In this document: positions 18,389 to 53,967 of the stretch, piece by piece
Layout: every line of letters starts with the position of its first letter
Position numbering within the stretch: position 1 is the stretch's first letter
NCBI GenBank assembly: GCA_017459985.1
Contig: JAFUBX010000022.1
Span: 61,488 to 125,487, forward strand
Reading direction: 5' to 3'
Origin: Parasporobacterium sp.
GTDB lineage: Bacteria; Bacillota; Clostridia; Lachnospirales; Lachnospiraceae
DNA: 64,000 nucleotides
Made by a program: the position numbers and the translations under genes
The notes under the pieces: generated by a model
Database searches by the model: none
What the model was told of the DNA's origin: nothing
Seen by the model: the letters and a program-made list of their open reading frames with translations, nothing else

Positions 18389-20134
18389 ATGTTGCAGATT
18401 ACGATTAATGGAAAGCCTGTTACTGCAAGAGAAGGGGCTACGATTCTGGAAGCTTCCGTTGAGGATCATTACGCCAGAGAGCAGTACGATATTGCGGTGA
18501 TGTCCCTGCAGTACTTAAAGGGTGTACAGGAAAAGGATGAGAGTGGTCTTTGTATTGCCGAAATACCCGGAATAGGACTTGTCAATGCAGCAGAGACGAT
18601 CGTCACAGAAGGAATGGAGATCCTGACCAAATCTCCGGAAGTAATAGAAAGACAGAAGCAGGTCCTGAAGGACATTTTGGATCATCATGACAGAGACTGT
18701 AGAAATTGCAGCCGTACCGGAAACTGTGAATTGCAGGATATCCAGTATTCTCTGCGTATGACGAAAAATCCGGTGACCGATCCTATTGAAACAGTTCCGC
18801 TCAGAGCCGATAGCATTATCGTACGGGACGATAACAAGTGTGTCCGTTGCGGTCGTTGTGTTGCTGTATGCGAGAATCTGCAGGGAATCGGTGCCATCAA
18901 GATGGAAGGAGATGGCATGACTGCCAGAATCGTTCCTTCAAAAGGGATTTCTCTGATCGAAAGCGGCTGCGTTGGCTGCGGACAGTGCATTACTGTCTGT
19001 CCGGTTGGCGCTCTTCATGAGCGGGATGATGTGGCAGCAGTGACAGAAGCTCTGAAGGATCCGGAAAAATATGTTGTAATTCAGGCTGCGCCTTCTGTGC
19101 GAGCCAGCATCTCGGAAGCCTTTGGATATCCTGTGGGATCCGGAACGAAGGGAAAGCTGGCTGCAGCTTTAAGAGCGCTTGGATTTGACCGGGTATTTGA
19201 TACGGTCTTTTCCGCAGACCTTACCATCATGGAAGAAGCCAATGAGTTGGTAGAACGGATCCAGAACGGCGGAAGCCTTCCGATGTTTACTTCCTGCTGC
19301 CCGGGCTGGATCAATTATATTGAAACCTTCTACGGCGAAATGCTGGATCATGTATCCTCCTGCAAATCCCCGCAGCAGATGTTCGGCGCAATGGTAAAGA
19401 CGTTCCTGGCAGAAAAAGAAGGCATTCCGGCAGAGAAGATCGTCGTTGTCAGCGCGATGCCTTGTACTGCAAAGAAACGCGAGCTTGGACGGGATCATCA
19501 AAATGCAGCCGGCGTTCCGGATGTGGATTTCTCCCTGACCAATCGGGAACTCGCCCGCATGATCGAACAGGCTGGCATCTCCTTCCCGGGACTGGAGGAT
19601 GAAGAGTTTGACGCACCTCTGGGCATTGGATCCGGAGCAGGAACCATCTTCGGAGCCACCGGCGGTGTGATGGAGGCAGCTCTTCGGACCGCCAATGATT
19701 GGCTGAACGGAGAGGCGCAGGAAGCCATTGACTTTACGGAAGTCCGTGGTATTTCCGGCGTAAAGGAAGCCAGTTATAAAGTCGGTGATCTTGAACTGCG
19801 CGTGGCAGCGGTCAGTGGACTGAAAAATGCAGCAGAGCTTCTGAATAAGATAAAAGCCGGTGAAGTGCAATATGACTTTGTAGAATTTATGGCATGCCCC
19901 GGCGGATGTGTGAACGGCGGCGGACAGCCCCAGCAGAAAGCCAGCGTGCGAATGATCAAGGATCTTCGTACAGAACGTGCCTTAAGCCTGTACCGGATCG
20001 ATCAGGCCGACAGGCTTCGCAAATCCCATGAGAATCCGGAAATCATTGAATTGTACAATTGTTTTCTTGAAAGACCGGGCAGCGAAAAGGCACATGCGTA
20101 TCTGCATACCCAGTATCAGGCGAAAGGAGAATAA
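18389..20134 (+). CDS. hydA: [FeFe]-hydrogenase with a degenerate N-terminal [2Fe-2S] domain
   Basis: A 581-residue monomeric [FeFe]-hydrogenase. H-cluster motifs are complete: FTSCCPGW, MPCTAKKRE and EFMACPGGCVNGGGQP. Two accessory [4Fe-4S] sites (CVRCGRCVAVC, CVGCGQCITVCP) and the His-Cys3 site (His100, Cys104, Cys107, Cys113) are intact. The N-terminal ferredoxin-like domain has lost three of four [2Fe-2S] ligands: positions equal to C. pasteurianum CpI Cys34, 46 and 62 are Gln41, Ser52 and Ala68; only Cys55 remains. GGAGG precedes the ATG. It is followed after 3 bases by a ferredoxin gene and then a flavoprotein and transporter. It should interconvert H2 with protons and electrons; electrons probably pass to the co-encoded ferredoxin. 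Confidence 0.95.
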   Translation: MLQITINGKPVTAREGATILEASVEDHYAREQYDIAVMSLQYLKGVQEKDESGLCIAEIPGIGLVNAAETIVTEGMEILTKSPEVIERQKQVLKDILDHHDRDCRNCSRTGNCELQDIQYSLRMTKNPVTDPIETVPLRADSIIVRDDNKCVRCGRCVAVCENLQGIGAIKMEGDGMTARIVPSKGISLIESGCVGCGQCITVCPVGALHERDDVAAVTEALKDPEKYVVIQAAPSVRASISEAFGYPVGSGTKGKLAAALRALGFDRVFDTVFSADLTIMEEANELVERIQNGGSLPMFTSCCPGWINYIETFYGEMLDHVSSCKSPQQMFGAMVKTFLAEKEGIPAEKIVVVSAMPCTAKKRELGRDHQNAAGVPDVDFSLTNRELARMIEQAGISFPGLEDEEFDAPLGIGSGAGTIFGATGGVMEAALRTANDWLNGEAQEAIDFTEVRGISGVKEASYKVGDLELRVAAVSGLKNAAELLNKIKAGEVQYDFVEFMACPGGCVNGGGQPQQKASVRMIKDLRTERALSLYRIDQADRLRKSHENPEIIELYNCFLERPGSEKAHAYLHTQYQAKGE

Positions 20135-20137
20135 ACC

Positions 20138-20413
20138 ATGAGATTAAGCGATTTAAAGGACGATCCTCGTCGTATGAATAATGTCACTGTTGACCCGGAC
20201 CTGTGCATGGGATGCATGAAATGCATTCGCACCTGCTGCTATGACGTGTATGAATGGGATCCGGTAAAGAAACTCTCAACTGCCGCCTATCCGGAAGAAT
20301 GTGTCACCTGTTATCAGTGCATGTATTTCTGTCCGGCAGGAGCTATCACAGTGAAGGAAGCAGAGTTATCGTTTTATGATCAGTTATATGATCCGTTCGG
20401 AATGAATGATTGA
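20138..20413 (+). CDS. Two-cluster [4Fe-4S] ferredoxin, AprB-like
   Basis: A 91-residue ferredoxin with two CxxCxxCxxxC motifs (CMGCMKCIRTC and CVTCYQCMYFCP), hence two [4Fe-4S] clusters. The N-terminal extension, the insert between the clusters and the short C-terminal tail resemble the ferredoxin part of adenylylsulfate reductase beta or the partner ferredoxins of fumarate-reductase-like flavoproteins. It starts 3 bases after hydA and precedes the flavoprotein, so it is placed to move electrons between the two. Confidence 0.9.
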   Translation: MRLSDLKDDPRRMNNVTVDPDLCMGCMKCIRTCCYDVYEWDPVKKLSTAAYPEECVTCYQCMYFCPAGAITVKEAELSFYDQLYDPFGMND

Positions 20414-20414
20414 T

Positions 20415-20483
20415 CGCGCACGGAAATGTTGAGTCGCGCGCGCACCGCGGAGCCTCGGCTCTCGCGCACCGCGCACGGAAATG
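20415..20483. repeat. GC-rich spacer bounded by a 14-bp direct repeat
   Basis: cgcgcacggaaatg occurs at 20415-20428 and again at 20470-20483; between them is very GC-rich sequence with a small hairpin (gagcc/ggctc). It separates the ferredoxin and flavoprotein genes and differs sharply in composition from both. The second copy runs into the flavoprotein ribosome binding site. Confidence 0.7.
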
Positions 20484-20492
20484 GAGGATGAA

Positions 20493-22217
20493 ATGGAACA
20501 TAACACAAAAACATATACAACCGATGTGCTGATCGTTGGCGGCGGCCTGGGCGGAGCCATCATGGCACAGAAGCTTCATACGATAAAACCGGACGTGAAG
20601 ATCACCATTATGGAAAAAGGGTATTTCGGATATACCGGACAAACTACGAAAGCAGGGCACGGTATGTGCATCATGTCCCCGGAAGCTGGGGATGAGATTT
20701 ACGCCATGTGCCAGGAGCAGGTAGAACTCAATCCTTACGGAACCTACCTGAATGACCAGGACTATCTGTTTGAGTATCAGAAAGAACAGTATACCTATAT
20801 CCAGGAACTGGAGCGGATGGGCGGTAAATTCTCACATAACCCGGATGGAACGCTGCATCATCACCATGAATTTGAAGGAAAAAAGATTTCTGCAGTGCAG
20901 ATTGATGTGGATTTTATGACACCGTTTTGCAAGAACGTGATGGCAGGCGGAGCTCAGATCCTGGAGCGCACATATTTTACCGATCTTCTGACGAAAGACG
21001 GAAAGGTAGTCGGAGCTGTAGGCTTCCATCTGGACACTACAGACTTCGTCATTGTCCGTGCAAAAGAGGTCGTACTTGCGACGAACGAATTCAATCCCTC
21101 TTGCCGGGACATGTTCTATGCACCTGCGACCGGCTATGCAGCCGCTTATGAAGCCGGCGCGCAGCTTCGGAATGTGGAACATCTGACCGAATGGGATCTG
21201 GTTTACCGAAATACCGGTAACTTTCTCTATGGCGTGCATTGGGTAGTCTGCAACAGCAAGGGAGAAAACCTGTTCCGCAAATACAACTCACAATCCCTGG
21301 AGGAACTGGAGGTTCAGCTGATCCGGGGAATGGCGAAGGAACTGGAAATGGGAAACGGTCCTCTGGTGGCGGACTTCACACTGCTTCCGAAGGTCAATGA
21401 AGGTGCTGACGGTTTCTATCACGGCATCGAAATGAAGCAGAGAATGGAATTGGATCAGTTTATCGGCAGATTCCAGCATGTGGATCCCACCAATCCGAAA
21501 CCGGAAGTGTCCGTCTCCTACCGTGTCAGCATCCGTTCTTTAAGAATTGATGTAGAGGGAAAGACCACGGTTCCGCATCTGTGGGGACTGGGACAGATGA
21601 CAACCGCAGGTTCTGCCCATGGCAGCTGGGTACATGGAGATGGCCTGGGCGTTGCAGCAAAGACTGGTCTGATGACAGCGAAAGCCATGGCAAAATACAT
21701 TGACCAAACGGAACTTTCCGAAGTGGATGAAGCGCAGGTGGAATTCTTCCGCAAGAGAATCTATGAATCAGAGGAATACAAGGGAGAATACCGTCCGGAT
21801 CATGTGATCCGCTATATCTCACGGCTGATCAAGAAGCCGGAATACAGCTTCAACAAGACCGAAGAGACCATGACTGAGCTGATTGCAGAACTGAATGAAA
21901 TCCGTGAGCAGTATAAGGACATGATCCATCTGCCAAAAGTGAATGGTCATTATCTGGCTAAGGCTATTGAATTGCGGACAATGATCGACATGCTGGAGAT
22001 CATGTTCCTGGTATTCAAAACCCGAAAAGAAAGCCGCGGATGCTTCAACCGCCTGGATTATCCGGAACGGGATGACAGGAACTGGCTGAAATGGGTACTG
22101 GTGGATAATAAGAGTGAAGACGGCAAACCGCATATTTTCACAGAGCGTATCCCCATCGAACGCTATCCCTTTAAGCCTGAAGGCTGGCAGGAAATCGTGA
22201 TGAATGCAGCCAATTGA
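20493..22217 (+). CDS. FAD-binding flavoprotein of the AprA/fumarate reductase class
   Basis: A 574-residue flavoprotein. The dinucleotide-binding motif VLIVGGGLGGAIMAQKL is at the N-terminus, followed by EKGYFGYTGQTTKAGHG; the second FAD contact GLGQMTTAGSAHGSWVHGDG is near residue 360. The C-terminal helical domain (about 400-574) matches the AprA/SdhA type. GGAGG selects the ATG at 20493. With the ferredoxin next to it, the pair resembles AprAB, but key AprA substrate residues cannot be checked here, and no other sulfate-reduction genes occur, so reduction of an organic substrate is more likely. It would receive electrons from hydrogenase through the ferredoxin. The following MFS gene may bring in the substrate. 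Confidence 0.83.
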   Translation: MEHNTKTYTTDVLIVGGGLGGAIMAQKLHTIKPDVKITIMEKGYFGYTGQTTKAGHGMCIMSPEAGDEIYAMCQEQVELNPYGTYLNDQDYLFEYQKEQYTYIQELERMGGKFSHNPDGTLHHHHEFEGKKISAVQIDVDFMTPFCKNVMAGGAQILERTYFTDLLTKDGKVVGAVGFHLDTTDFVIVRAKEVVLATNEFNPSCRDMFYAPATGYAAAYEAGAQLRNVEHLTEWDLVYRNTGNFLYGVHWVVCNSKGENLFRKYNSQSLEELEVQLIRGMAKELEMGNGPLVADFTLLPKVNEGADGFYHGIEMKQRMELDQFIGRFQHVDPTNPKPEVSVSYRVSIRSLRIDVEGKTTVPHLWGLGQMTTAGSAHGSWVHGDGLGVAAKTGLMTAKAMAKYIDQTELSEVDEAQVEFFRKRIYESEEYKGEYRPDHVIRYISRLIKKPEYSFNKTEETMTELIAELNEIREQYKDMIHLPKVNGHYLAKAIELRTMIDMLEIMFLVFKTRKESRGCFNRLDYPERDDRNWLKWVLVDNKSEDGKPHIFTERIPIERYPFKPEGWQEIVMNAAN

Positions 22218-22290
22218 GCAGTCGTCATGTATGGGATATGGTGCCTGCTTCTTAAGGGGTCTGGAATATAAGATGAAAGGGTAAAGGACT

Positions 22291-23541
22291 ATGGAAAATA
22301 ATAAGAAAAGCAGATGGTACGGACCTAAACAGATTCACATTATGTTGTATACAGCAGTGATCTTTCTGATCGGTACCAGTATTATCGGTGGCAACAACAA
22401 TACGGTATTTCCCATGTTTGCAGAGATCCGTGGCTGGGATATCAATATCCTGAATATTGTATCCGGTATTGCATGTATCCTGAAGGGCATTGGTATCCTG
22501 GTGTTTGCCGGGGCTGTCCGCAGGTTCGGGCCCAAGAAGCTGATGGCAGTTTCTCTGCTGATTTCAGCGGCTTTCCTGGTGATTTTCGGATTCACCACAT
22601 CTCTTCCGCTGTACCTGATCATGATCCTTCTGATCGGTCTCTTAGGCGGTGCTTATGAAAAAAACGGCGGAATGGGCCTGACAGCAAACTGGTGGCCAAC
22701 TAAGAAAGGAGTTGTGTTAGGAATTACCACCATTGGCATTATCCTGATGAACATCGTCTACGTTCCTTACATGCCGCAGCTTCTGGGCAGCGTTGGACTG
22801 GGATGGGGTATGACCATTATTGCAATCATTCTGGTGATTGTGGCTGTATGGACATTGATCGGAATCAAGAACACACCGGAAGAAGCCGGAGAATACCCGG
22901 ATGGAGATCCTACTTTTGCGGTAAATGGCGCTGAAATTGAGAAGCTGATGCGGGAATACAAGAGCCCCTTCAAGTTCAGTGTTCTGGCCAAAGATTCCAG
23001 CACCTGGCTCATCGGCTTCGGTTCCGGATTTGCCTTTATGGCAGTTATGAGCTTCATTGCATCTGCCATTCCGACCATGATGGCTTATGGTTATGATTAT
23101 CCTTTTGCAACCACCATATTTGCCGTTGGCGGTGTCTGTGGTATCGTAGGAAGTTTCCTGTTTGGTCTTATTGATCAGAAGATCGGTACTAAGAAAACCT
23201 TTATCATCTACTTTATCTGCATTATCATTGGTTTTGTGTGTACCTTACTGATGCCAAATGGTCCCATCTTCTGCTGGATGGCCGGCATCATTATCTTCGC
23301 AGCTCAGGGAGCTCTGTGTAACCTGCTTCCTTCCTATGTGGCCACCAAATACGGCCGCTGGGATTACACCGCTGCTTATAAGGTAATCGGAACGATCTTC
23401 GAGATCTTTGCTGGTATCGGCGTTATGATGACCGGATTCTTCCCGAATCCTGCAATCATGTACATCGTGGACCTGGTTCTACTTGTGGCGGGCCTGATCA
23501 TGATGATCTTCTCCAATGACAAGTTTATAGGAAAACGGTAA
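22291..23541 (+). CDS. MFS transporter, oxalate/formate antiporter (OFA)-like
   Basis: A 416-residue protein with about twelve transmembrane helices. Markers of the OFA-like group are GGNNNTVFP in the first loop, the NWWPTKKGVVLG motif between helices 4 and 5, and the central cytoplasmic loop KNTPEEAGEYPDGD. It ends the hydrogenase operon, 73 bases after the flavoprotein, and is followed by a terminator. Substrate is probably an organic acid anion exchanged for its reduced product; this is inference from the family and from similar transporter genes next to flavoprotein genes further along. Confidence 0.87.
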   Translation: MENNKKSRWYGPKQIHIMLYTAVIFLIGTSIIGGNNNTVFPMFAEIRGWDINILNIVSGIACILKGIGILVFAGAVRRFGPKKLMAVSLLISAAFLVIFGFTTSLPLYLIMILLIGLLGGAYEKNGGMGLTANWWPTKKGVVLGITTIGIILMNIVYVPYMPQLLGSVGLGWGMTIIAIILVIVAVWTLIGIKNTPEEAGEYPDGDPTFAVNGAEIEKLMREYKSPFKFSVLAKDSSTWLIGFGSGFAFMAVMSFIASAIPTMMAYGYDYPFATTIFAVGGVCGIVGSFLFGLIDQKIGTKKTFIIYFICIIIGFVCTLLMPNGPIFCWMAGIIIFAAQGALCNLLPSYVATKYGRWDYTAAYKVIGTIFEIFAGIGVMMTGFFPNPAIMYIVDLVLLVAGLIMMIFSNDKFIGKR

Positions 23542-23613: not shown

Positions 23614-25158
23614 TTACAGATTTTCCATTTTAGAGATCTCATAAGAGAGGATCAGATATTGCCTTTCCTGAGGATCCTGGTAATTAACATGAACCAGGGA
23701 GTCGATCTTGGTTAGTCGATAGTTCAGGGTATTCCGATGGATGAACATGGCTTCCGAAGCAGTGGCGCTGTTGCGTTCATAGATCAGATACATATACAGG
23801 CTGTAGGCCAGTTGGGAGTCATGATCTTTGTCAAAGTCGATCAGGTATTTCATTTTCGGGTGACAATAGACCTCCGGGGATTCCTTCTGGAAGAAAATGT
23901 GAGCCATATGTTCCATATGATATTGTCCATAAATGAACAAGTTGGGATTGGGATCGTGGGAGGTGCCGATCTCAATAGCCCGGAGGGCCTGCTTGTAGAA
24001 ACCGGCAACATCCAGCAGAGAACGGAAGTGATTGCTGATTCCTGCAAAGAGACCATACTCAATGCAAAGAGAACGGATGGATTCATAGTCCTGTGGATGC
24101 AGCCCTTCCTTTTCGGGAAGGCAGAACAGTACTATGATTTCTCCGTTATACATCAGGGTTTTGGTGTTTGGGAGCAGGAATTCGAAGCGATTACGAATCA
24201 GGAATACATTCAATGCCATAGAACTCCTGGCAGTTTCAATGACCATACAGTACAGGGAATCAGAGAATTCCGCATTCACATAATTCATCTGTACCAGATA
24301 TTGCTTCGGCGTGGCAATCCGGCCATCCAGAAGATCCTTCAGGAAATATTCATAGGGATAACCATTGTTGTCCTTGACGAATTCCTCTTTGCGCATCTGT
24401 TGATAGAGTCCTTCTTTCAGCATGATCATCAGCTGACAGTCCACATCATTAAAAGGCCGGTTTACTGCGTTGATCACAATGTGGCCAATATCCTTGCGGG
24501 TATCAATGGTGCAGAGCATCTGCTCACAGCCAATCTCATCGTGGTAAACAACGATGGGCACTTCACTTTTTTTGACTTTATCATGGATCCTCCGTTTATT
24601 GATCAGGCGGTATTCGTCCTCTGTCATGCCCATCTGATCTACAATGCGTTTGCCGGCGGGATGCTGCAGCGCCATTTCGTAATTGCAGGCGATGAGGTGG
24701 AATCCGGCGTCAAAGACAAATACGGGGTTATTGAATCCCCGGGTGAACTTGTCGACCATAGGTTGGATACCGGTTTCATGGAACAGCATATCCAGAAGGG
24801 ATTCGGAGACGAGGCCCATGGCATTTACTCCATTAAAATAATCCCGCAATTTTATCTGGATTTCCACATCGTAAGCAGAAGGAATGACCGAATAATTGAC
24901 CCTTTGCTCCATTTCTCCCAGCAGACTTGCTGCTTCATCTGCCGACATGCCGAAGAACAGCAGATTCTGGGAATCCAGCAGCTGTGCATCTGCCAGATCC
25001 GAAGCCTGATTCACGATGTAAAGGGTATGGAGGGTGTATGGAAGGATAGCGATGTTGAAACGTTCGAAACAAGTAATGCAATAGTCATCCGAATTTACAA
25101 AGCTGACAGGATGGCGATCTTTCAATAATTCACAGATATTCCCATGACCAATGAACAT
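23614..25158 (-). CDS. PucR/CdaR-family transcriptional regulator
   Basis: A 514-residue regulator. The C-terminus carries the PucR helix-turn-helix (NSATASEAMFIHRNTLNYRLTKID, about residues 455-478) and the GGDEF-like linker region lies before it (about 290-420). The N-terminal part (residues 1-260) is a probable sensor of unknown ligand. AGGAGGT precedes the start. It faces the hydrogenase operon and is divergent from the thiolase operon across a 218-base spacer, so it could control either; regulation of the thiolase genes from the shared spacer is the simpler reading. Confidence 0.88.
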   Translation of the reverse strand: MFIGHGNICELLKDRHPVSFVNSDDYCITCFERFNIAILPYTLHTLYIVNQASDLADAQLLDSQNLLFFGMSADEAASLLGEMEQRVNYSVIPSAYDVEIQIKLRDYFNGVNAMGLVSESLLDMLFHETGIQPMVDKFTRGFNNPVFVFDAGFHLIACNYEMALQHPAGKRIVDQMGMTEDEYRLINKRRIHDKVKKSEVPIVVYHDEIGCEQMLCTIDTRKDIGHIVINAVNRPFNDVDCQLMIMLKEGLYQQMRKEEFVKDNNGYPYEYFLKDLLDGRIATPKQYLVQMNYVNAEFSDSLYCMVIETARSSMALNVFLIRNRFEFLLPNTKTLMYNGEIIVLFCLPEKEGLHPQDYESIRSLCIEYGLFAGISNHFRSLLDVAGFYKQALRAIEIGTSHDPNPNLFIYGQYHMEHMAHIFFQKESPEVYCHPKMKYLIDFDKDHDSQLAYSLYMYLIYERNSATASEAMFIHRNTLNYRLTKIDSLVHVNYQDPQERQYLILSYEISKMENL

Positions 25159-25376: not shown

Positions 25377-26675
25377 ATGAGCTTTAGTGATAATCTTCCA
25401 AAACTGAAACCATTTAACAGAAGCGTTTCCATTGTAGGCGTCGGAGTTACGCCTTTCCGGCAGACAAGAGAAGTCACGGATCTGGACGGCATTACCGAAG
25501 GAGAGCTTTTTGGCTATGCGGCCATCGAAGCCATGCGGGATGCAGGAATCAACGGAAAGGATGTGGATTTCTTTATCCATGGACAGGCAGGACCCGGATG
25601 GACCAGCAATTTTGCCACACCCAATATGCATGTGGCCAACTGGCTGGGCATGAAGGGCAAAGCGTCCTATCATCAGAGCGAAGCCTGTGCAACCGGCTAT
25701 GTGGCGCTGGAGACCGCGGTGGCTATGGTTGCTTCCGGGACCTATGACACGGTATTAAGCGGATGCGTGGAAATGCCCCATTCCATCGCTTATCCGGACC
25801 GGGTCTTAACCAAGAGAAGGCTGGGTACGGAAGCGATCTTCCATGAAACCCTTTGCTCTACCATCACCAGGGACTATAACTTGTTTACCAATGGCATTCT
25901 TCCATTCCACTGGGAGTCCTGGTTCCAGGCCTATGTGGAGGAAAACAAGCTGAGCGATGAGCAGGCAGATGCGCTTCTGGTGCATATGTCAATCAATGCA
26001 CGGAAGATGGCGTCCATCAATCCCATCGGTCTTAATTTTGGGAAAGATTATGATGCCGTTGCGAAAGAGAATGGGTTTGAGACAGCCGAGGAATTTCTGA
26101 CCTCCAAGTGGAATCCGAAACTGGGCCATTGGTACCGTGTCAGCAACTTTGAACAGCGCTGTGACGGCGCCGGTGCCATGATCGTGATGCCGACCGAGAT
26201 GGCCTATGACTACACGGATCATCCCATCGAGATCCTGGGCATCGGACACTCTTGCGTGGAATACGGCAATCCCCAGAATGAGCGAACGGGAACCTTAAAC
26301 GCTTATAAGCAGGTCCGCGAACTGACCGGACTCACCGGTGCGGATATGGATCTGTTTATGACCAATGATTTCTTCCTGGCACAGCAGCTGCTCTCTGCAG
26401 AAGCCTGCGGATATCTGCCGGAGGGAGAAGGTTGGCAGTACATGATGGATGACCGGTGTACCTTCGAGGGGGACCGCCCCATTCAGACAAATGGCGGAAG
26501 ATGCCATTACGGACATGCCGCCAGTGCATCCGGTACCCATGACATCTTTGAAGTGGCGATGCAGATGCGGGGAGAGGCGGACGCCCATCAGATTAACAAG
26601 CCCATCAAGCATGCGATGATCCGAGGATTCGGCGGCGGCCAGAACCTGCTGTGCATGATCCTGCGGTATAACTAA
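25377..26675 (+). CDS. SCP-x-type thiolase family protein
   Basis: A 432-residue protein of the non-canonical thiolase (SCP-x/PhlC-like) class. The nucleophile is Cys104 in SEACATGYVAL; the C-terminal catalytic histidine is in RCHYGHAASASG (about residue 375), where family enzymes carry G-H-P. AAAGGA precedes the chosen ATG; an earlier in-frame ATG lacks a site. Enzymes of this class cleave or form carbon-carbon bonds next to a keto group and usually need a DUF35 partner, which is the next gene. In this operon it would act on a keto-acyl group held on CoA or on the fused carrier protein. Substrate unknown. Confidence 0.85.
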   Translation: MSFSDNLPKLKPFNRSVSIVGVGVTPFRQTREVTDLDGITEGELFGYAAIEAMRDAGINGKDVDFFIHGQAGPGWTSNFATPNMHVANWLGMKGKASYHQSEACATGYVALETAVAMVASGTYDTVLSGCVEMPHSIAYPDRVLTKRRLGTEAIFHETLCSTITRDYNLFTNGILPFHWESWFQAYVEENKLSDEQADALLVHMSINARKMASINPIGLNFGKDYDAVAKENGFETAEEFLTSKWNPKLGHWYRVSNFEQRCDGAGAMIVMPTEMAYDYTDHPIEILGIGHSCVEYGNPQNERTGTLNAYKQVRELTGLTGADMDLFMTNDFFLAQQLLSAEACGYLPEGEGWQYMMDDRCTFEGDRPIQTNGGRCHYGHAASASGTHDIFEVAMQMRGEADAHQINKPIKHAMIRGFGGGQNLLCMILRYN

Positions 26676-26694
26676 GGAAGGGGAGGAACTTGTC

Positions 26695-27456
26695 ATGAGA
26701 TATGCGAAACTGGAAAGAATCGTGAAAACATATTACGATGCGCTGGAAGAAGGAAAAGTATTAGGACGTAAGTGCACGTGCTGCGGCCATATTGAATTCC
26801 CGCCTTACCTGGCGTGCAATGAGTGTGGGAATCTGGACACAGAATGGGTAGACCTCACCAATACCCGGGCGAAGATCACGCAGGTGCTTCCGCCGCTGAA
26901 TGTATTCCCAGAGACCCCATTTGCAGAGGCCAACGGCGGTTTTGTGGCAGTCTGCGTAAAAATCGATCAGGCAGATCCGTATGTTACTTCCATGGTTCAC
27001 GTCGGTAAGGATGCGTATGAGTCGATCCGTGAAAACATGGAGAATATTACTGTAAAGCCTTATATTATCCAGGGTGAGGATACGAAGATCTGCTCCTGGG
27101 TGGATGTCAATTATAAAGAAGAGCCGAAGAAAGAAGAATCAAAGAAAAATGCGGCAAAAACAGAGCCAGCGGAAAAGAAGGCAGCACCGGTACAGCAGAC
27201 AGTTCCGGATGCGGATGATGAGGTCACCAGGGCGGTGATTGATGCGGCAGCGGATGCTTATGAAGTGGATGCATCGGGGATTACGCTTTCCACCGATATC
27301 CGGGAGGATCTGGCACCGCAGTCCATGAAGATGATCGTCATGCTTTCCAATATTGAAGATGCGCTGGATGTGACCATTGAAATCACGGAAGCCGGCAATC
27401 TGAATACGATCCAGGATTTTATCAATGCAGCAAAGGAAAAACTGGGGAGGAACTGA
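26695..27456 (+). CDS. DUF35 zinc-ribbon/OB-fold protein fused to an acyl carrier protein domain
   Basis: A 253-residue fusion. Residues 1-55 contain the rubredoxin-like zinc ribbon of DUF35 (Cys27 and Cys30, Cys41 and Cys44), residues 55-140 the OB fold. A Lys/Glu/Ala-rich linker (141-172) leads to a C-terminal carrier domain (175-250) with the prosthetic-group serine at Ser210 in EDLAPQSMKM, where DSL is usual, followed by IEDALDVTIEI. DUF35 proteins bind SCP-x thiolases and position acyl-CoA; fusion to a carrier domain suggests that the acyl group is held on phosphopantetheine instead. It is 19 bases after the thiolase and 2 before pta. I know of no described DUF35-ACP fusion, though I could not search. 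Confidence 0.85.
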   Translation: MRYAKLERIVKTYYDALEEGKVLGRKCTCCGHIEFPPYLACNECGNLDTEWVDLTNTRAKITQVLPPLNVFPETPFAEANGGFVAVCVKIDQADPYVTSMVHVGKDAYESIRENMENITVKPYIIQGEDTKICSWVDVNYKEEPKKEESKKNAAKTEPAEKKAAPVQQTVPDADDEVTRAVIDAAADAYEVDASGITLSTDIREDLAPQSMKMIVMLSNIEDALDVTIEITEAGNLNTIQDFINAAKEKLGRN

Positions 27457-27458
27457 TC

Positions 27459-28460
27459 ATGGGATTTATTGAGACAATATATGAGAAAGCAAAGAGTAAT
27501 GTGAAGACGATTGCGATTCCCGAAAGTACCAATGAAATCATGCTCCGGGCGTCTGCCAGAGTGCAGCAGGATGGGATCGGGCGAATCGTACTGATCGGAG
27601 ATCCAGAGAAGATTCATGCGAAAGCAGATTCCATAGGGGTGGATCTTTCTGAAATCAAGATTGTTGATACAGCTAATCAAGCCTATATAAACGGGCTGTT
27701 GGATGCTTATGAGAATTCACAGAAGAAGGTCATGGGAAGAAAATTCGTTGCCAAGAGGGTGTCGGATCCTCTGTATCTGGCCTGCCTGATGGAGGCGGTG
27801 GGCGAGGTGGACTGCACCATGGCGGGCATTGACACCACGACTTATGAATTCGTTCTGGCGGCAAACAGCATTATCGGGATGGCACCGGGCTGCGTCACGG
27901 CTTCCGGTCTGCAGATCCTGGAACTGGAAGAATTCCAGGGGGAGAAGGATAAGTTTATTGGGATCTCTGATGGAGCCATTAATGTGGAACCCACTGTTGA
28001 GCAGCATGCAGGCATAGCCATTGCTTCCTGCGATACCTTCCTTGCCATTACCGGCATTGAGGCCAAGTGTGCCTTTCTGTCCTATTCCACCGATGGATCA
28101 GGCGGCATGAGCGCACCGGTGAAAAAGGTGAGAGACGCGGTGGCTCTGGCGCAGCAGCTTCGGCCGGATCTGGCTATTGATGGCGAGTTTCAGTTTGATG
28201 CAGCCATGCTCCCGGCGGTTGGAGAAAAGAAAGTGAAGCGTCCCAGTAAAGTCGCAGGTCATGCCAATGTGCTGATCACTCCGGATGCTTCCGGATGCAA
28301 TATTTGTGGCAAGGCCATCCAGTTTACATCCAAATGCAAATCTTTTGGACCGCTGTATCAGGGATTTCGTCTTCCGATTCTGGATTGCTCCAGAGGAATG
28401 GATGAAGCATTGGCCTATGACAATATGGCGCTTTTGTGTGTACAGGCACAGGCGGTGTGA
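27459..28460 (+). CDS. pta: Phosphate acetyl/butyryltransferase
   Basis: A 333-residue phosphotransacylase of the Pta/Ptb family. Typical blocks are MGRKFVAKRVSDPLYLACLM, FLSYSTDGSGG near residue 207, and PDLAIDGEFQFDAAMLPAV followed by AGHANVLITPDASGCNICGK. These fit Pta better than Ptb, though the next gene is butyrate kinase. It converts an acyl-CoA and phosphate to acyl phosphate. It starts 2 bases after the DUF35-ACP gene and is co-transcribed with the kinase, so the pair gives ATP from the acyl product. Specificity for C2, C4 or a longer acyl group is uncertain. Confidence 0.88.
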   Translation: MGFIETIYEKAKSNVKTIAIPESTNEIMLRASARVQQDGIGRIVLIGDPEKIHAKADSIGVDLSEIKIVDTANQAYINGLLDAYENSQKKVMGRKFVAKRVSDPLYLACLMEAVGEVDCTMAGIDTTTYEFVLAANSIIGMAPGCVTASGLQILELEEFQGEKDKFIGISDGAINVEPTVEQHAGIAIASCDTFLAITGIEAKCAFLSYSTDGSGGMSAPVKKVRDAVALAQQLRPDLAIDGEFQFDAAMLPAVGEKKVKRPSKVAGHANVLITPDASGCNICGKAIQFTSKCKSFGPLYQGFRLPILDCSRGMDEALAYDNMALLCVQAQAV

Positions 28461-28469
28461 GGTGACCTT

Positions 28470-29582
28470 ATGAAAGAGTATACAATTATTACCATCAACC
28501 CTGGCTCCAGCAGCACCAAAGTCGGTGTCTACCGGGGCGGCCAGGTGATCCTGGATAAAAATGTGGATCATGATACCCATGAGTTCGACCATTGCAAAAC
28601 CTTTGCAGAGCAGGAACCCATCCGGACCCGGAAGATCATGGAGATTTTGGAAGATGCGGATATAGATCTGAAAAAAGTGGATGCTGTATCCGGCAGGGGC
28701 GTTGGGGTGCATTCCTGCGAAGGAGGAACTTATGAGATTAACGAGACAGCCTTCCTGCATGCCCAGAATGATGTGGAAAAGATCCATCATCCTGCGACCC
28801 TGGGAATCGTCATTGCGAAGAAACTGGGAGATCAGTTGGGCGTTCCATCCTATTTTGTAAACCCCATGAGCGTGGATGAACTGAGCGATGTGGCTCGTAT
28901 GACAGGCGTAAAAGGGATCTATCGCCCCTCTCACGGACATCCGCTGAATGAGAAACAGGTGGCGATTCATCACAGTGAACTGCAGGGAAAGCGGTATGCG
29001 GACTGTAACTATGTGGTGCTTCATATGGGTGGCGGCATCAGCATTGCAGCACACAGAAAGGGAAGGATCGTTGACAGTACCCGGTCCGGTGACGGACAGG
29101 GTACCATTTCACCCAATCGAAGCGGCGACCTGTGCATTGATGACATCCTGACGTTGATGAATAAACGGGGGATTGACCTGAAAGAGATCAATATGCTGGC
29201 TGCCCGGAAGGGCGGGCTGGTGGATCTGACAGGAACCGACGATGTCCGCCAGGTGAAAGAACGGATCGCTGCCGGTGACAAGTGGGCGGAGTTGTGTTAT
29301 CATGCAATGATCTATACCATCATCAAATGGACCTGTATGATGGCAGGCGCTCTGGGCGGTCAGGTGGATGGCATCCTCATGACAGGTGGTCTTGCCTATG
29401 ATGAAGATCTGGTCCGGGAGGTGACCGAAAACGTGCAGTGGATCGCTCCGGTTTCAGTGTATCCGGGCAGCCACGAAACGGAAGCCCTTGGTGCTGGTGT
29501 GGAACGGGTGCTTTCCGGACAGGAGACAGCAAAAACATACTCAGGCAGACCGGTATGGGAAGGATTTGATTATGAACCATAA
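28470..29582 (+). CDS. buk: Butyrate kinase
   Basis: A 370-residue acid kinase of the acetokinase superfamily. The N-terminal phosphate loop TINPGSSSTKVGVY, the LHMGGGISIAAHRKGRIVDS block and the late GILMTGGLAYDEDLVREV are characteristic of butyrate/branched-chain kinases. Length agrees with the family. It takes acyl phosphate and ADP to the free acid and ATP in the cytoplasm. It is 9 bases after pta and overlaps the next gene by 11 bases. Acids other than butyrate, such as isobutyrate or an aryl-substituted acid, cannot be excluded. Confidence 0.93.
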   Translation: MKEYTIITINPGSSSTKVGVYRGGQVILDKNVDHDTHEFDHCKTFAEQEPIRTRKIMEILEDADIDLKKVDAVSGRGVGVHSCEGGTYEINETAFLHAQNDVEKIHHPATLGIVIAKKLGDQLGVPSYFVNPMSVDELSDVARMTGVKGIYRPSHGHPLNEKQVAIHHSELQGKRYADCNYVVLHMGGGISIAAHRKGRIVDSTRSGDGQGTISPNRSGDLCIDDILTLMNKRGIDLKEINMLAARKGGLVDLTGTDDVRQVKERIAAGDKWAELCYHAMIYTIIKWTCMMAGALGGQVDGILMTGGLAYDEDLVREVTENVQWIAPVSVYPGSHETEALGAGVERVLSGQETAKTYSGRPVWEGFDYEP

Positions 29583-30306
29583 AGATTTTCTGCAAACCGG
29601 AATTGCCGGGCTGTATAAAGAAGAACTTTCGGCGGCTGATATCGTCACAGCCGGAGATCTGAACCGGATGATGCAGAGGGTGACAGAGAATTCTATGGAA
29701 AGACTCGGAGTCACGGTTTCGGATCTTATGGATCGGAACCTGCTGTGGGTGATCTGCTTTTCACAGATCCAGGTCACACGCATGCCGGAGCCCGGAGAAA
29801 GCCTGGAAATCTATACCTGGCCAGGGGCCCCGAAACTGGGAATGTACACCAGAAGATATGTCTTTTTTACAAAGGATGGAGAAGAACTGCTGCAGGCAGC
29901 CTCCCTGTTCTCTCTGGTCAATCAGAAAACCAGAGAAATGGTGCTTCCTTCGGATGCCAACATCATATTCCCTGTGGTACAGATGCCTGAGGAAATGAAG
30001 CTTCCGAAGATGACTTTAAAAGGGCCGGAAGCAACCAGTGAAGTAAGACATCTGGTGGAGTCCGGCGAGATCGATATCAATGACCATGTGAACAATGCGT
30101 TTTATCTGGACTGGTGTACCGACATTCTGGCACAAAAGGCTCCGGATTCGGCCTTTCAGGCCGGCAGTATCTGGATCAGCTACGCCCGGGAGATCCGGCC
30201 CCGGGAGGAAGTCTCTCTGCAGTATTCGCAGGAAAAGGGACGGTTGTTTGTCAAGGGCTATGTGCAAGGGGAGCATTGCTTTACGATGGATATGCAGCTG
30301 CACTAA
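29572..30306 (+). CDS. Acyl-ACP thioesterase (FatA-like)
   Basis: A 244-residue double hot-dog thioesterase. The second hot-dog contains the catalytic motif DINDHVNNAFYLDW (about residues 165-178), with Asn and His of the family's active site. The first hot-dog has TENSMERLGV and TWPGAPKLGMYTRRYV. The start ATG lies inside the last codons of buk. Enzymes of this kind release free acids from acyl carrier protein. Its presence beside a DUF35-ACP fusion supports the view that an acyl group really is carried on ACP in this operon. Chain length cannot be predicted. Confidence 0.87.
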   Translation: MNHKDFLQTGIAGLYKEELSAADIVTAGDLNRMMQRVTENSMERLGVTVSDLMDRNLLWVICFSQIQVTRMPEPGESLEIYTWPGAPKLGMYTRRYVFFTKDGEELLQAASLFSLVNQKTREMVLPSDANIIFPVVQMPEEMKLPKMTLKGPEATSEVRHLVESGEIDINDHVNNAFYLDWCTDILAQKAPDSAFQAGSIWISYAREIRPREEVSLQYSQEKGRLFVKGYVQGEHCFTMDMQLH

Positions 30307-30347
30307 CCGATAGATCATGCTTTCTTTACACAATTGGAGGAACCAGG

Positions 30348-30971
30348 ATGCGGCGTATTTTTGATCAGCGAAGAATAAAAGAAGCGTTTCAGAAGACTGG
30401 ATTGGATACATGCATAGACAACATCGATTCCGGAATCATGATTTGCGAATATAATCCAGGTGAACTGGTAATCTCTCCGCTTCAGCAATCGAAAGATCTG
30501 TTGTTCCTTCTGGAAGGAGAAGCCTCCGTATATGTGTTGGACGAGGAGGGGTCGATGCTGGTGGCTGCCCGTGAAACAGCGGGAGTTATGATCGGTGACC
30601 CGGAATTATTTCTGAAAAACTATCAGTCTGTATATGTGGAAGCGAAAACAAAGCTCCGTGTACTGAAATTCCCCTATGAATTATGTCTGAGTCAGATTCG
30701 AACGAATGAAACATTTACCCATTTTCTGATTCGGCAGATTCTGATACGGGAAAACCGAAAACGGCAGATTGATCACACCGTAAAATCAAACAAAGAAAAA
30801 ATCCTCTTTTTTATCCAAAATATGTGTCAGAATCAGTGTATCACCAGCATCTCCAAGGTAGCGGATTCTATTCATTGCAGTTACCGCCAGGTGCAAAGAC
30901 TGATCCGGGAAATGGTGGATGAAGGGATTTTAGTGCGAACGGGGAAGGGAAAGTATTCTCTGACAAAATAA
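30348..30971 (+). CDS. Crp/Fnr-family transcriptional regulator
   Basis: A 207-residue regulator with an N-terminal cyclic-nucleotide-binding-like beta-barrel (about residues 15-115, including LLFLLEGEASVYVLDEEG) and a C-terminal winged helix (ITSISKVADSIHCSYRQVQRLI, about 160-182). The arginine and glutamate that bind cAMP in Crp are not apparent and the N-terminal Cys spacing does not match the Fnr cluster, so the signal is unknown. TTGGAGG precedes the ATG. It is the last gene of the thiolase operon, 41 bases after the thioesterase, and lies just upstream of a palindrome before the C-glycosidase genes. Confidence 0.87.
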   Translation: MRRIFDQRRIKEAFQKTGLDTCIDNIDSGIMICEYNPGELVISPLQQSKDLLFLLEGEASVYVLDEEGSMLVAARETAGVMIGDPELFLKNYQSVYVEAKTKLRVLKFPYELCLSQIRTNETFTHFLIRQILIRENRKRQIDHTVKSNKEKILFFIQNMCQNQCITSISKVADSIHCSYRQVQRLIREMVDEGILVRTGKGKYSLTK

Positions 30972-31080: not shown

Positions 31081-31533
31081 ATGAAATTAAAAGATGAACT
31101 TGCGAACCCAATCGCATTAAGACTGAATTTTGTAGATGTTATCTGTGATGACTCCCTGAAAAATATATATGTAAACGGGAAGAAAACAGGATGTCAGTTT
31201 GACGTGAGACTCAGTTACTACAGAGGACATTTTCTTTCAACCATTGATATCTTAAAAGTCTTTATTGATGGAACAGAAATTCCGCAGCAGGATATTTCTT
31301 TTGCTCTGAAGGGGAAAGAATACGGAGTCGCACAGATCCCGGATTTGGTCAATGTGTTCTGGCCCATCGCAGAACCTGCGACAATCAAGGTCTTTTTACC
31401 TGGCGGACTGGCAGAAGGTGACCATGATATCAATTTTGTCATGTATTTCCGAAGCCCCTATATGGCAATCAGCGAGTCTGCCTATATGCCAATCGACAGC
31501 AGCGGAGAGAAAACACTTCGCGTGAAGAATTGA
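31081..31533 (+). CDS. dfgB: C-glycoside deglycosidase beta subunit (DUF6379)
   Basis: A 150-residue beta-rich protein matching the small subunit of bacterial C-glycoside deglycosidases (DfgB/CarB/DgpB). Family blocks are DVRLSYYRGHFLSTID, EYGVAQIPDLVNVFWPI and FLPGGLAEGDHDINFVMYFRSPYM. It starts with GGAGGAGAT 5 bases upstream and is followed after 14 bases by the alpha subunit. In the known enzymes this subunit forms a complex with a TIM-barrel subunit that breaks the carbon-carbon bond of 3-oxo-C-glucosides from flavonoids. Confidence 0.87.
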   Translation: MKLKDELANPIALRLNFVDVICDDSLKNIYVNGKKTGCQFDVRLSYYRGHFLSTIDILKVFIDGTEIPQQDISFALKGKEYGVAQIPDLVNVFWPIAEPATIKVFLPGGLAEGDHDINFVMYFRSPYMAISESAYMPIDSSGEKTLRVKN

Positions 31534-31547
31534 AGGAGGAGGAGAAA

Positions 31548-32531
31548 ATGAGCAACGTAAAAACAGGAGTGACCTTATATTCTTTTACAACGGAATACTG
31601 CAAAGGCATTATGACATTGGAGGATTGCATTAAGACAGCGAAGGATCTTGGAGCTGCAGGATTTGAAATTGTTGCAACACAGATGATTCCTTCTTACCCC
31701 TATGTAGATGATCAGTTTCTGGGAGAGTTCAGACGCATCTGTAAAGATTATGAAATGGAACCTGTCTGTTACGGCGCAAATATGGACAGAGGATTACGAG
31801 GCGACCGGAATCTGACCGATGATGAAATGCTGGCCATGGCTGTAAATGACATTAAAAATGCCTATAAGATGGGATGCAAATGTGTCAGAGAACAGTATCT
31901 GATCGGAGCGGAAAACTTCGGACGGCTGGCGCCTTATGCAGAGGCCTATGGCGTAAAGGTCGGCATTGAGATCCATAATCCGGATACGCCGATTACGCCG
32001 ATGACAGAATCTTTCCTGGAAGTCATTGAAAAAACCGGATCAAAGTATCTGGGACTGGTACCGGATTTTGGATGTTTTGCTACAAAACCCAATAAAATGG
32101 GATGGGATAACGCACTGAAAGCCGGTGCGAAACTGGAGCTTTTAGAGCTTGCCCGGGATATGAAATATGATGAAGTTCCTCTTGCGGAAGCGAAAGAAAA
32201 ACTGATCGCAGCAGGCGCAACGGACGTGGAACTCAGTACACAGCAGGATATGTATGCATTCCTGCAGTTCAAAAAAGACATCAGCAAAGAGCTGGAAGGT
32301 CTGAAGAAGATCATCCCCTATTGTATCCACATGCATGGAAAATACCATTATGTTTATGAAAATCTGGAAGAATCGGCGATTCCCTATGACCGGATCCTGG
32401 AAGTGGTAAGAGAATCCGATTACGAAGGATATATCGTTTCCGAATATGAGGAATACAACTCCAATCATTCCTTCGAGATGCTGAGACGTCACCAGCTGAT
32501 GATGAAGAAATATCTTGGGCAGGAAGCATAA
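31548..32531 (+). CDS. dfgA: C-glycoside deglycosidase alpha subunit (TIM-barrel, xylose-isomerase-like)
   Basis: A 327-residue TIM-barrel protein of the sugar isomerase/epimerase fold. Metal and catalytic residues of the C-deglycosidase group are visible: Glu and His in VGIEIHNP, Asp in VPDFGCF, His residues in IHMHGKYHYV and Glu in IVSEYEE. GGAGGAGG precedes the ATG at 31548. Paired with the DUF6379 subunit it should cleave oxidised C-glucosides such as 3-oxo-puerarin or 3-oxo-orientin types. The sugar-oxidising Gfo/Idh/MocA enzyme that makes the oxo-substrate in known systems is not in this window. Confidence 0.88.
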   Translation: MSNVKTGVTLYSFTTEYCKGIMTLEDCIKTAKDLGAAGFEIVATQMIPSYPYVDDQFLGEFRRICKDYEMEPVCYGANMDRGLRGDRNLTDDEMLAMAVNDIKNAYKMGCKCVREQYLIGAENFGRLAPYAEAYGVKVGIEIHNPDTPITPMTESFLEVIEKTGSKYLGLVPDFGCFATKPNKMGWDNALKAGAKLELLELARDMKYDEVPLAEAKEKLIAAGATDVELSTQQDMYAFLQFKKDISKELEGLKKIIPYCIHMHGKYHYVYENLEESAIPYDRILEVVRESDYEGYIVSEYEEYNSNHSFEMLRRHQLMMKKYLGQEA

Positions 32532-43083: not shown

Positions 43084-44451
43084 TTAAATATGTTCAATCT
43101 TTCCGTTCAGGCAGTCAGAAACCATAAATCCGGTGTTGAGCGCGCTCTCATAGGACCCGGTATACATATAATCGCCGGCCATATACAATCCTTCTACGAT
43201 CTTGTAATTGTTGTCACGGAATTCCTTGATAGCAGATGGGCAGCCATTCTGCATCGTAAAGTTTGCCAGCGGAGCCTTCACCACATGCCCGCCAACGTAA
43301 TGATCCGGCAGTTCCGGGAAATACTTCTTCAAGGTGGTAAAGGTGTGCTCCAGAACCTCTTCTTCGGTCATATCCCAGTATTTCTGCAATTTATCTTCCC
43401 CGAAATAAAACACACTCATGGCATCGGAATCCTCATTCGGAAGCGCTGCCGGATTCCGGGAGGACTGGAACAGACAGGTACAGAAGGGCTCATCCAGATA
43501 ACGCGGAAGGAGTCCGCCGACCGGTTTCACGCCATCGGTCATCCGTTTGTCCAGAAAGATGGTGGAGTGAATGGTCCGGCAGATGGTAACTTTCTCCAGC
43601 GGTTTTTTGATCTCATCCGGCATATTCGGCATGATCCGGATAGCAACCGGAGCAGGAACGGTACAGATCACCTTATCGCACTCATAATAATCTCCGTTTT
43701 CACACTTCACGCCTTTGACTTTGCCGTCTTCGATGACGATCTCAGAAACGACTGCTCCCAGTTTTATCCGGTCACCCAGAATATCAGCAATGGTCTGTCC
43801 TAAGCGGCCCAGTCCCCCGTTCAGCACGGCTGCACCGCCGACCAGAACGGTCCATACAATCTGAAGGCCGAATGCCACACCGCATTTTTCCGGATATTCC
43901 AACCCCAGAGATGCAACTACCGGCTGCACAAAATATTCCAGTACCCGTTCGCCAAAGTTATTTTTTACAAATTCTCCGAAGTTAGATCCGTCATCCTGAT
44001 CTGCGTCCATCATCCAGTCTGTAGATCCTTCATAGAATTTTCCTGCACAGTATTTCTCACAGAATGCGGCAAATTTTCCGAAATTCTCTTCGCCCATGTA
44101 TTCCATCCACTCTTTATTGGCTGCCACAGCTTCCGCGTCGTCCGGATTGGGGAATGCAGCGACCCATTTATTATTGAACCAGACACTCATACCAGCGCCT
44201 AATTCGAATGGGTGCAGATCCTGGATCAGATTCAACTCGGTCATCAGTTCTTTGGCCCGTTTATAGCTGGGGTGTACAAACTGGGCATATTCGTCGATCA
44301 GATATCCGTTCTCTTTGAATACCTGCATACGTCCGCCTACGGTAGACTGACTCTCCAGTACTGTGACGTCCCATCCGGTTTTGTTCAGGTTATAGGCTGC
44401 CGAAAGGCCTGCGCAGCCGCCGCCTACGATTACAACTTTTTTATTTTCCAT
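43084..44451 (-). CDS. Flavin amine oxidase/protoporphyrinogen oxidase-like FAD protein
   Basis: A 455-residue FAD protein. The N-terminal dinucleotide motif is VVIVGGGCAGLSAAYNL, the GG motif VGGRMQVFKENGY, and the C-terminal FAD motif GLYMAGDYMYTGSYESAL, the pattern of the flavin amine oxidase/phytoene desaturase/HemG superfamily. The ATG at 44451 follows AAAGG. It is the fourth gene of the operon, between a GlcD-like flavoprotein and the MFS transporter. It may oxidise or desaturate the substrate; haem synthesis is unlikely here because no haem genes are present. Confidence 0.82.
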   Translation of the reverse strand: MENKKVVIVGGGCAGLSAAYNLNKTGWDVTVLESQSTVGGRMQVFKENGYLIDEYAQFVHPSYKRAKELMTELNLIQDLHPFELGAGMSVWFNNKWVAAFPNPDDAEAVAANKEWMEYMGEENFGKFAAFCEKYCAGKFYEGSTDWMMDADQDDGSNFGEFVKNNFGERVLEYFVQPVVASLGLEYPEKCGVAFGLQIVWTVLVGGAAVLNGGLGRLGQTIADILGDRIKLGAVVSEIVIEDGKVKGVKCENGDYYECDKVICTVPAPVAIRIMPNMPDEIKKPLEKVTICRTIHSTIFLDKRMTDGVKPVGGLLPRYLDEPFCTCLFQSSRNPAALPNEDSDAMSVFYFGEDKLQKYWDMTEEEVLEHTFTTLKKYFPELPDHYVGGHVVKAPLANFTMQNGCPSAIKEFRDNNYKIVEGLYMAGDYMYTGSYESALNTGFMVSDCLNGKIEHI

Positions 44452-44513
44452 GGTCTTTTCCTTTCTGTTCAATTGATCTGCCTTGACTATATATCTGTCA
44501 GAATCCTCATTTT

Positions 44514-46064: not shown

Positions 46065-46079
46065 GCTTATCCCCTCCTT

Positions 46080-47330: not shown

Positions 47331-47350
47331 AACTTTATTCCTCCTTCTTT

Positions 47351-53596: not shown

Positions 53597-53609
53597 GCCT
53601 GCTCCTTTC

Positions 53610-53855: not shown

Positions 53856-53909
53856 TTTTAGTTCCTCCTGTTTCATTGATTTTCTGTTTTCATCCTATCT
53901 GACTCCATG

Positions 53910-53967
53910 TAGAAAGTGTGTTTCGATATCGAAAAAACGTTATTCCAAAATCGAAACACACTTTCTA
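53910..53967. repeat. 18-bp inverted repeat between the flavoprotein and ACP genes
   Basis: tagaaagtgtgtttcgat (53910-53927) pairs perfectly with 53950-53967 across a 22-base loop. Next to the inner end of the left arm the sequence also reads ttcgatatcgaa, a palindrome. It lies between co-directional genes, so it may stabilise or attenuate the transcript or serve as a second operator; there is no T-run of terminator type. Confidence 0.7.

Follow-up and report, generated by a model that had tools for sequence, protein, structure and literature searches.

A thiolase operon encoding a DUF35-acyl carrier protein fusion in a Lachnospiraceae bacterium: a candidate system for carrier-bound C-C cleavage coupled to ATP formation

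In this report we focused on a six-gene operon of Parasporobacterium sp. (Lachnospiraceae), located at positions 25377-30971 of a 64,000-nucleotide stretch of contig JAFUBX010000022.1 (61,488 to 125,487 of the forward strand; hereafter the window), and performed a computational analysis of its products, their relatives and their genomic surroundings. In order, and all on the plus strand, the operon encodes an SCP-x-type thiolase of 432 residues (25377-26675; Thiolase_C_1 78.3 bits, Thiolase_N 30.5 bits), a 253-residue protein in which a DUF35 module is fused to an acyl carrier protein (ACP) (26695-27456), a PTA-type phosphotransacylase (PTA) (27459-28460; PTA_PTB 248.7 bits), an acyl kinase of the butyrate kinase (BUK) family (28470-29582; TIGR02707 354.4 bits, cut-off 289.1), a FatA-like acyl-ACP thioesterase (TE) (29572-30306) and a Crp/Fnr-like regulator (30348-30971; cNMP_binding 37.2 bits). 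The TE scores above the cut-off for both FatA-like Pfam domains (Acyl-ACP_TE PF01643, 60.2 bits; Acyl-ACP_TE_C PF20791, 39.5 bits) and its best PDB match is 2own. Successive genes are separated by 19, 2, 9, -11 (an 11-bp overlap of the TE and BUK genes) and 41 bp. A preliminary description of this DNA had placed these six families in one operon without fatty-acid synthesis genes. Gene order and family assignment with Pfam and NCBIfam models confirm this: leaving aside the carrier domain itself, none of the six products had a fatty-acid synthesis enzyme as its best match.

The fusion protein has three parts, a zinc ribbon/OB fold (residues 1 to ~138), a Lys/Glu/Ala-rich linker (~140-172) and a carrier domain (~175-250), in which Ser210 (codon at 27322-27324, plus strand), invariant in our alignments, is the predicted phosphopantetheine attachment site. 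This architecture, also read in the preliminary description, is recovered by two domain models that both score above cut-off, zf-ChsH2 (24.4 bits at residues 15-48, cut-off 23.2) and PP-binding (21.4 bits at residues 180-244, cut-off 20.8). The same domains are found in relatives, with 26.8 and 26.9 bits, respectively, in the fusion from Slackia exigua, and PP-binding scores of 23.2 to 44.6 bits in stand-alone ACPs of related operons (hereafter cassettes). Ser210 and the zinc-ribbon cysteines 27, 30, 41 and 44 are unchanged in all 11 aligned fusion sequences.

The DUF35-ACP fusion is rare, not a singleton. A scan of genome contigs yielded 11 loci (loci and genomes are cited below by L and G numbers), nine of which carry the fusion. 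Two of these, L005 and L007, are truncated by a contig end, and L010 has two copies, while in L011 and L012 DUF35 and ACP are neighbouring separate genes. Whole-genome searches were made in samples of larger groups. At E<=1e-20, 9 of 299 genomes of the window's family matched, four of which (the window's own among them) have a full fusion, and in 391 genomes of its class the one match was again the window's own. In the family of S. exigua, 4 of 138 genomes match at E<=1e-15, with the fusion in S. exigua only. Overall, there are 14 fused copies from several assemblies and two phyla, on which grounds a chance fusion or an assembly artefact was rejected, and at least five of them (L002, L003, L004, L079, L125) carry two ACPs in tandem. 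Close plasmid copies were also discarded as a candidate, since only two plasmid records match, covering 18-25% of the query.

The thiolase, with its fold, Cys nucleophile and GH motif, adjoins a DUF35 module with a Cys4 zinc ribbon, which is the signature of SCP-x thiolase/DUF35 pairs. All 26 aligned thiolases have Cys104, and His380 (in a GHA motif) and a Gly-rich C-terminal motif are also conserved. At the position of the third thiolase Cys, which we take to be that of the CxG motif, the clade has GFGGxQN or GYGGxQN. The best PDB match of the thiolase profile is an acetyl-CoA acetyltransferase (7yvy, 1.5e-39), the second is the thiolase from an archaeal complex with HMGCS and DUF35 (6esq, 1.8e-30), and later ones include BbsB (7pxp, 4.1e-26) and PhlC (9skh, 6.9e-24; 5m3k, 2.2e-23). 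Cys104 and His380 align with Cys88 and His347 of PhlC. In PhlC crystals Cys88 is acetylated, and the proposed mechanism is a direct attack on a free aryl ketone or C-acylphenol donor leading to acyl-Cys (PMC6392133, in the sections drawn on here). Family scans, which covered part of the neighbouring genes, recognised no acyl-activating ligase in the clusters, and we therefore take PhlC as a model for how a non-thioester substrate could enter.

How tightly the carrier is linked to this thiolase was examined for 38 thiolases of the clade by searching an ACP profile 4 kb either side of each. A DUF35 match lies beside all 38; 14 thiolases have the fusion, 15 have a separate ACP gene and nine have no ACP; the same profile gave no match in 354,489 bases of control loci without such a thiolase. 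The 14 fused thiolases form a single clade (support 100/100), which spans from Lachnospiraceae to S. exigua (Actinomycetota) and contains no unfused member among the 38. Its nearest sisters (L011, L012, L176) each have a separate ACP gene, so that ACP was probably an operon partner prior to fusion. The preliminary description had named absence of the carrier domain from close homologues of the operon as fatal to its carrier-bound model, and no such absence is seen here. Since S. exigua is nested among Bacillota sequences in the thiolase tree, the tree also points to transfer between phyla.

The features of the PTA provide a second line of evidence. In 12 genomes searched with PF01515, scores fall into three groups: a high one, a middle one of about 242-304 bits that includes the cassette enzymes, and a weaker Ptb-like one that was left out of the alignment. 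When 45 PTAs were aligned to M. thermophila Pta, whose numbering is used here, Asp307, Ser309 and Arg310 were kept in all 45, whereas Arg87 and Arg133 were both absent from all 34 cassette-type PTAs. By comparison, canonical Ptas of the same genomes have Arg87 in 11 of 11 and Arg133 in 10 of 11 cases (that of Slackia has Ser), and one of the alignments is ungapped at Arg133. These two arginines lie in CoA (coenzyme A) site 2, and their mutation chiefly alters Km (PMC6461089, in the passages used). In the PTA domain of MaeB, Arg535 touches the 3'-phosphate of CoA and Arg581 its pyrophosphate (PMC7902834, likewise in part), and these are presumed to be the equivalents of Arg87 and Arg133 from the identical spacing of 46 residues. 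The lost contacts would thus concern a part of CoA that is missing from the ACP arm, as expected of an acyl-ACP-specific enzyme, and the loss of the arginines points to an acyl-ACP substrate.

Gene linkage is in line with this. Of the 34 cassette PTAs, 29 have an ACP gene within 4 kb; of the 11 canonical ones, none does. As a check on selection bias, we considered separately ten cassette PTAs that were first met via PF01515 and not via ACP or DUF35. Six of these ten have an ACP within 4 kb versus 0 of 11 canonical genes (Fisher p 0.004, relatedness ignored), and within 6 kb the counts are 8 of 10 versus 1 of 11, in L228 (p 0.002, again ignoring relatedness). In L220 the ACP lies 6.5 kb from the cassette PTA, farther than the flanks examined for canonical genes, and in L215 no ACP was found in the flanks examined. 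We regard it as likely that both the thiolase and the PTA act on ACP thioesters.

Is the carrier charged? All 28 aligned carrier rows have the attachment Ser; they include one duplicate and one housekeeping-type ACP, that of L228. A search for phosphopantetheinyl transferases (PPTases) with PF01648 gave a match in 17 of 18 genomes, and in six of the 18 (S. exigua, G327, G104, G748, G789, G337) a PPTase and a cassette gene are no more than about 7 kb apart. In S. exigua, the PPTase (L009 16331-17035, 234 residues, PF01648 53.6 bits) comes after HydA and DUF1097 in the cluster. G789 has a cassette-near PPTase in two places, and that of G337 (125 residues) is AcpS-like by eye. The genome of the window has one PPTase match, which shares a contig with the operon and lies about 77 kb upstream of it; this PPTase is Sfp-like in size and, by eye, stands beside a carrier-protein gene and an AMP-ligase-like gene. 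Ser210 is thus probably charged with phosphopantetheine, and the domain is very probably a working ACP. The presence of cassette and PPTase in one cluster of S. exigua ATCC 700122, a culture-collection strain, makes the system directly testable.

Together, the conserved carrier with its attachment Ser, the PPTases near cassettes and the arginine loss in the PTA support the carrier-bound model of the preliminary description, which came through these sequence tests. With moderate confidence, we propose that the operon joins a thiolase acting through ACP with enzymes for substrate-level phosphorylation, so that carrier-bound thiolysis would lead to ATP. First, Ser210 would gain phosphopantetheine. 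Second, as in PhlC, Cys104 would attack a non-thioester acyl group next to a carbanion-stabilising carbon, in a 1,3-dicarbonyl or a C-acylated polyhydroxy-arene, splitting the C-C bond and leaving acyl-Cys. Third, the tethered ACP arm, held by DUF35 where CoA sits in the related complex, would accept the acyl group. Fourth, the modified PTA would convert acyl-ACP and phosphate to acyl phosphate, as its lost CoA-site arginines and its linkage to ACP genes suggest. Finally, butyrate kinase would yield ATP and the free acid, and in some lineages the acyl-ACP thioesterase may offer a second, ATP-free exit.

The surroundings of the operon give hints to the substrate. The boundaries in the preliminary description left out two groups of genes that recur beside relatives of the operon: a divergent PucR-type regulator (23614-25158, minus strand), assigned by family search and with homologues beside fused loci, and an upstream module (18389-23541, plus strand) encoding a [FeFe]-hydrogenase HydA-like protein (18389-20134; PF02906 317 bits), a 2x[4Fe-4S] ferredoxin-like protein (20138-20413), a FrdA/AprA-like flavoprotein (20481-22217) and a major facilitator superfamily (MFS) transporter (22291-23541). 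Within about 10 kb of the 14 fused thiolases, on contigs that are often cut, we found PTA and BUK ten times each, FrdA ten times, HydA eight times, PucR nine times (E<=1e-30), a URO-D-family protein six times and PhlG three times. The FrdA-like, 4Fe4S and hydrogenase genes probably serve to ready the substrate via a H2-linked redox step. The PhlG/phloretin-hydrolase family (PF18089) has members in 15 of 61 genomes, among them every one of the 14 searched from the window's genus, and in none of 14 controls; it lies inside the cassettes of L003, L219 and L222 and near those of L006, L008 and L071. A ketone or reduced ring derived from plant polyphenols is the probable substrate, as the PhlG-type hydrolases nearby hint; assigning it to the polyphenol type is a tentative step. 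PhlG itself was rejected as a core component of the cassette, since it is absent from the S. exigua genome and from the genome of a Family XIII metagenome-assembled genome (MAG), and it is best seen as lineage context.

Several side observations concern the same surroundings. Directly downstream of the operon (31081-32531, plus strand) lie genes for the beta subunit of a C-glycoside deglycosidase (PF19906, 119.9 bits) and its TIM-barrel partner, and genes 79% and 89% identical to this pair lie near a PhlG gene in L074. G336, the genome of L010, shows an unusual expansion with 17 PhlG/DAPG-hydrolase family matches, some of which are weak or pieces of one split gene. In L004 (5613-8504), larE/larB/larC-like genes (by eye, for nickel-pincer cofactor synthesis) stand immediately upstream of the thiolase and a DUF35-ACP-ACP fusion. 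Elsewhere in the window, at 43087-48820 (minus strand), consecutive genes for FAD_binding_4, CCG/Fer4 iron-sulphur and amine-oxidase-like flavoprotein products resemble a glycolate-oxidase-type operon.

A link to phloroglucinol degradation was considered. In 17 genomes searched, PF04199 (DPGC) was found in 14 and PF05853 (TAL) in 16, with the two genes adjacent in G266, G327 and G337, and neither is in the operon of the window. Several of these genomes seem to encode the phloroglucinol route (as outlined in PMC10470551) at other places. The idea that the module replaces triacetate acetoacetate-lyase in that route was rejected in view of these PF04199 and PF05853 matches and because S. exigua has neither family.

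The direction of the pathway is the point on which the strongest alternative turns. Biosynthesis would have BUK spend ATP to make acyl phosphate from a free acid, PTA load the ACP and the thiolase form a C-C bond in a Claisen or Friedel-Crafts manner, giving a small ketone or signal. The kinase and PTA reactions are reversible, and PPTase genes, which stand beside the cassettes, are common in biosynthetic clusters. PhlACB, moreover, acylates phloroglucinols reversibly (PMC6392133, same sections). However, many recurrent neighbours (MFS, PucR, PhlG-family, URO-D-family, hydrogenase, FrdA-like) look catabolic, with the limit that families were assigned for part of the neighbours and tailoring genes are possible among the rest. 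We therefore consider biosynthesis unlikely and, from these gene contents, have good confidence in a catabolic direction.

A number of observations weigh against thiolysis on a carrier. First, both domain matches of the window fusion barely exceed their cut-offs, and the Asp that usually precedes the attachment Ser is found, by eye, only in L228, the cassette ACPs having K, A, T, Q or G instead. Second, nine of the 38 thiolases (L078, L095, L092, L091, L060, L093, L057, L086, L130) have no ACP within 4 kb; near two of these, L078 and L130, lie BUK and a PTA of the weaker, Ptb-like kind, so that CoA may serve for this chemistry too. Third, the ACP counts are partly selected because many loci were collected via a DUF35-ACP query, and the link between ACP and PTA among thiolase loci (among the 34 loci with no cut close to the operon, 23 of 25 with ACP and 0 of 9 without have a cassette-type PTA) rests on just two or three independent pairs, which makes it a description and not a test. 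Fourth, the PTA evidence has its own weak spots. The alignment at Arg87 is gapped, shifts by one residue between two alignments and is less sure; in P. gingivalis the equivalents of Arg87 and Arg133 are non-essential for catalysis, with moderate mutation effects (PMC6461089, in the same passages), so that their loss is suggestive only. The window PTA also has Leu in place of Asp316, whose P. gingivalis counterpart is important according to these passages (PMC6461089), and might therefore be weak or use another base. Fifth, some of the accessory families are common at large: PF01648 also matches in 10 of 14 control genomes, and TE-family matches (E<=0.001) occur in 16 of 18 genomes and 7 of 14 controls. 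Finally, the substrate hints are uneven, with no PhlG in the S. exigua or Family XIII MAG genomes and neither of the two phloroglucinol-route families sought, PF04199 and PF05853, in S. exigua.

The preliminary description had proposed two exits for the acyl group, through the thioesterase or through acyl phosphate to ATP, and in light of the above this stands in part. A TE gene lies beside 5 of 14 fused thiolases versus 0 of 24 non-fused ones, but the family is common in these genomes.

The marginal domain scores, the missing Asp and the loci without ACP are also what would be expected if the carrier domain were a structural or regulatory appendage, unused as an acyl carrier, with thiolase and PTA both working on CoA. 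This is difficult to reconcile with a Ser kept in every carrier row, an ACP, fused or separate, at 29 of 38 loci, tandem ACPs in several fusions, PPTase genes near cassettes and CoA-site arginines lost from the PTA, and we consider it improbable. Least likely by far is that thiolase and DUF35 act as a lyase or retro-aldolase in the manner of Ltp2/ChsH2, the steroid side-chain enzyme, with ACP presenting a substrate made elsewhere: the DUF35 model matched is indeed zf-ChsH2, and Ltp2 and ChsH2 (6ok1) are among the sequence matches, but neither Cys104 nor His380 varies, a pattern shared with acyl-Cys thiolases and PhlC, while to our knowledge Ltp2 has no Cys nucleophile, and no acyl-ACP synthetase that could load the carrier was recognised among the operon genes.

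Carrier-bound acyl transfer to phosphate may extend beyond the thiolase. Some cassette-type PTAs have an ACP and no recognised thiolase, either as ACP-PTA (L212, L214) or as ACP-PTA-BUK (L216), and in L213, L217, L218 and L220 an ACP and an S15/PepX_C-type hydrolase lie in the same region as PTA/BUK. The ACP-PTA pair of L212 (9019-10400) and L214 (4398-5750) is conserved, with no thiolase or recognised kinase close, and in both genomes a gene that resembles IspF by eye lies a few kb away. The window itself has a second carrier-protein cluster at 51809-55613 (minus strand), with an S15/PepX_C-type hydrolase (595 residues) and a free ACP (88 residues), both at 51809-53876, and a FAD_binding_2 flavoprotein. 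The units without thiolase suggest that carrier, PTA and kinase are a general unit to which various enzymes deliver acyl groups. More speculatively, gut anaerobes might have a general carrier-protein mode of energy conservation. In it, various loaders (thiolase-DUF35 for C-C bonds, and possibly S15/PepX_C hydrolases acting as acyltransferases on esters or amides) would take acyl groups from plant-derived molecules that are not activated and place them on dedicated ACPs. A PTA specific for ACP, together with BUK, would then make ATP, and CoA thioesters would play no part in the whole sequence. The window would contain two branches of such a system, the thiolase operon and, at 51809-53876, the S15-ACP pair.

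If carrier-bound thiolysis to ATP is correct, it would provide a thiolase and a phosphotransacylase working on ACP, and a new energy-harvest mode in gut fermenters. The ATP that fermenters gain from acyl groups would not need to pass via CoA, because a dedicated carrier would hand the fragment from C-C cleavage to an adapted PTA. Ketones that are otherwise hard to use, probably those of plant polyphenols in the guts of ruminants and other hosts, would gain a new route that yields energy and short acids. The loss of Arg87 and Arg133 in a PTA beside an ACP gene is a concrete sequence test for finding more such systems. In the open-licence PMC literature, judged mainly by titles and abstract openings, we found no description of a DUF35-ACP fusion or of an ACP-dependent thiolase/PTA system.

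Comparison with known systems highlights important similarities and differences. Among the closest is PhlACB of the 2,4-diacetylphloroglucinol (DAPG) pathway in Pseudomonas, in which the thiolase-fold PhlC with its Cys/His pair works with the DUF35-type PhlB to transfer a C-acyl group reversibly from a free aryl ketone, by a proposed acyl-Cys route (PMC6392133, as above). The main difference is that the operon in the window has an ACP fused to DUF35, together with PTA, BUK and TE, and that none of its six products corresponds to PhlA, the HMGCS/KASIII-like third subunit. The archaeal complex 6esq shares the thiolase-DUF35 pairing, but it uses CoA and has an HMGCS, and we know of no carrier protein or acyl kinase in that system. 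The benzoylsuccinyl-CoA thiolase BbsAB (7pxp), whose thiolase subunit is matched only distantly, is also catabolic, with a CoA thioester substrate and without ACP, PTA or BUK. Holding an acyl group on a dedicated ACP during catabolic C-C cleavage is known from citrate lyase and malonate decarboxylase. These have other folds and another prosthetic group, with no PTA/kinase coupling on the ACP, and none of the six operon products matched them. The step from acyl-ACP to acyl phosphate has a precedent in PlsX, which catalyses the same net reaction as that proposed for the cassette PTA and feeds phospholipid synthesis. Last, substrate-level phosphorylation by Pta/Ptb and AckA/Buk employs the same protein families as the cassette, whose PTAs share the active-site Asp307, Ser309 and Arg310 with canonical CoA-dependent Pta but differ in having lost the CoA-site arginines 87 and 133 (and, in the window, Asp316) and in standing mostly beside ACP genes.

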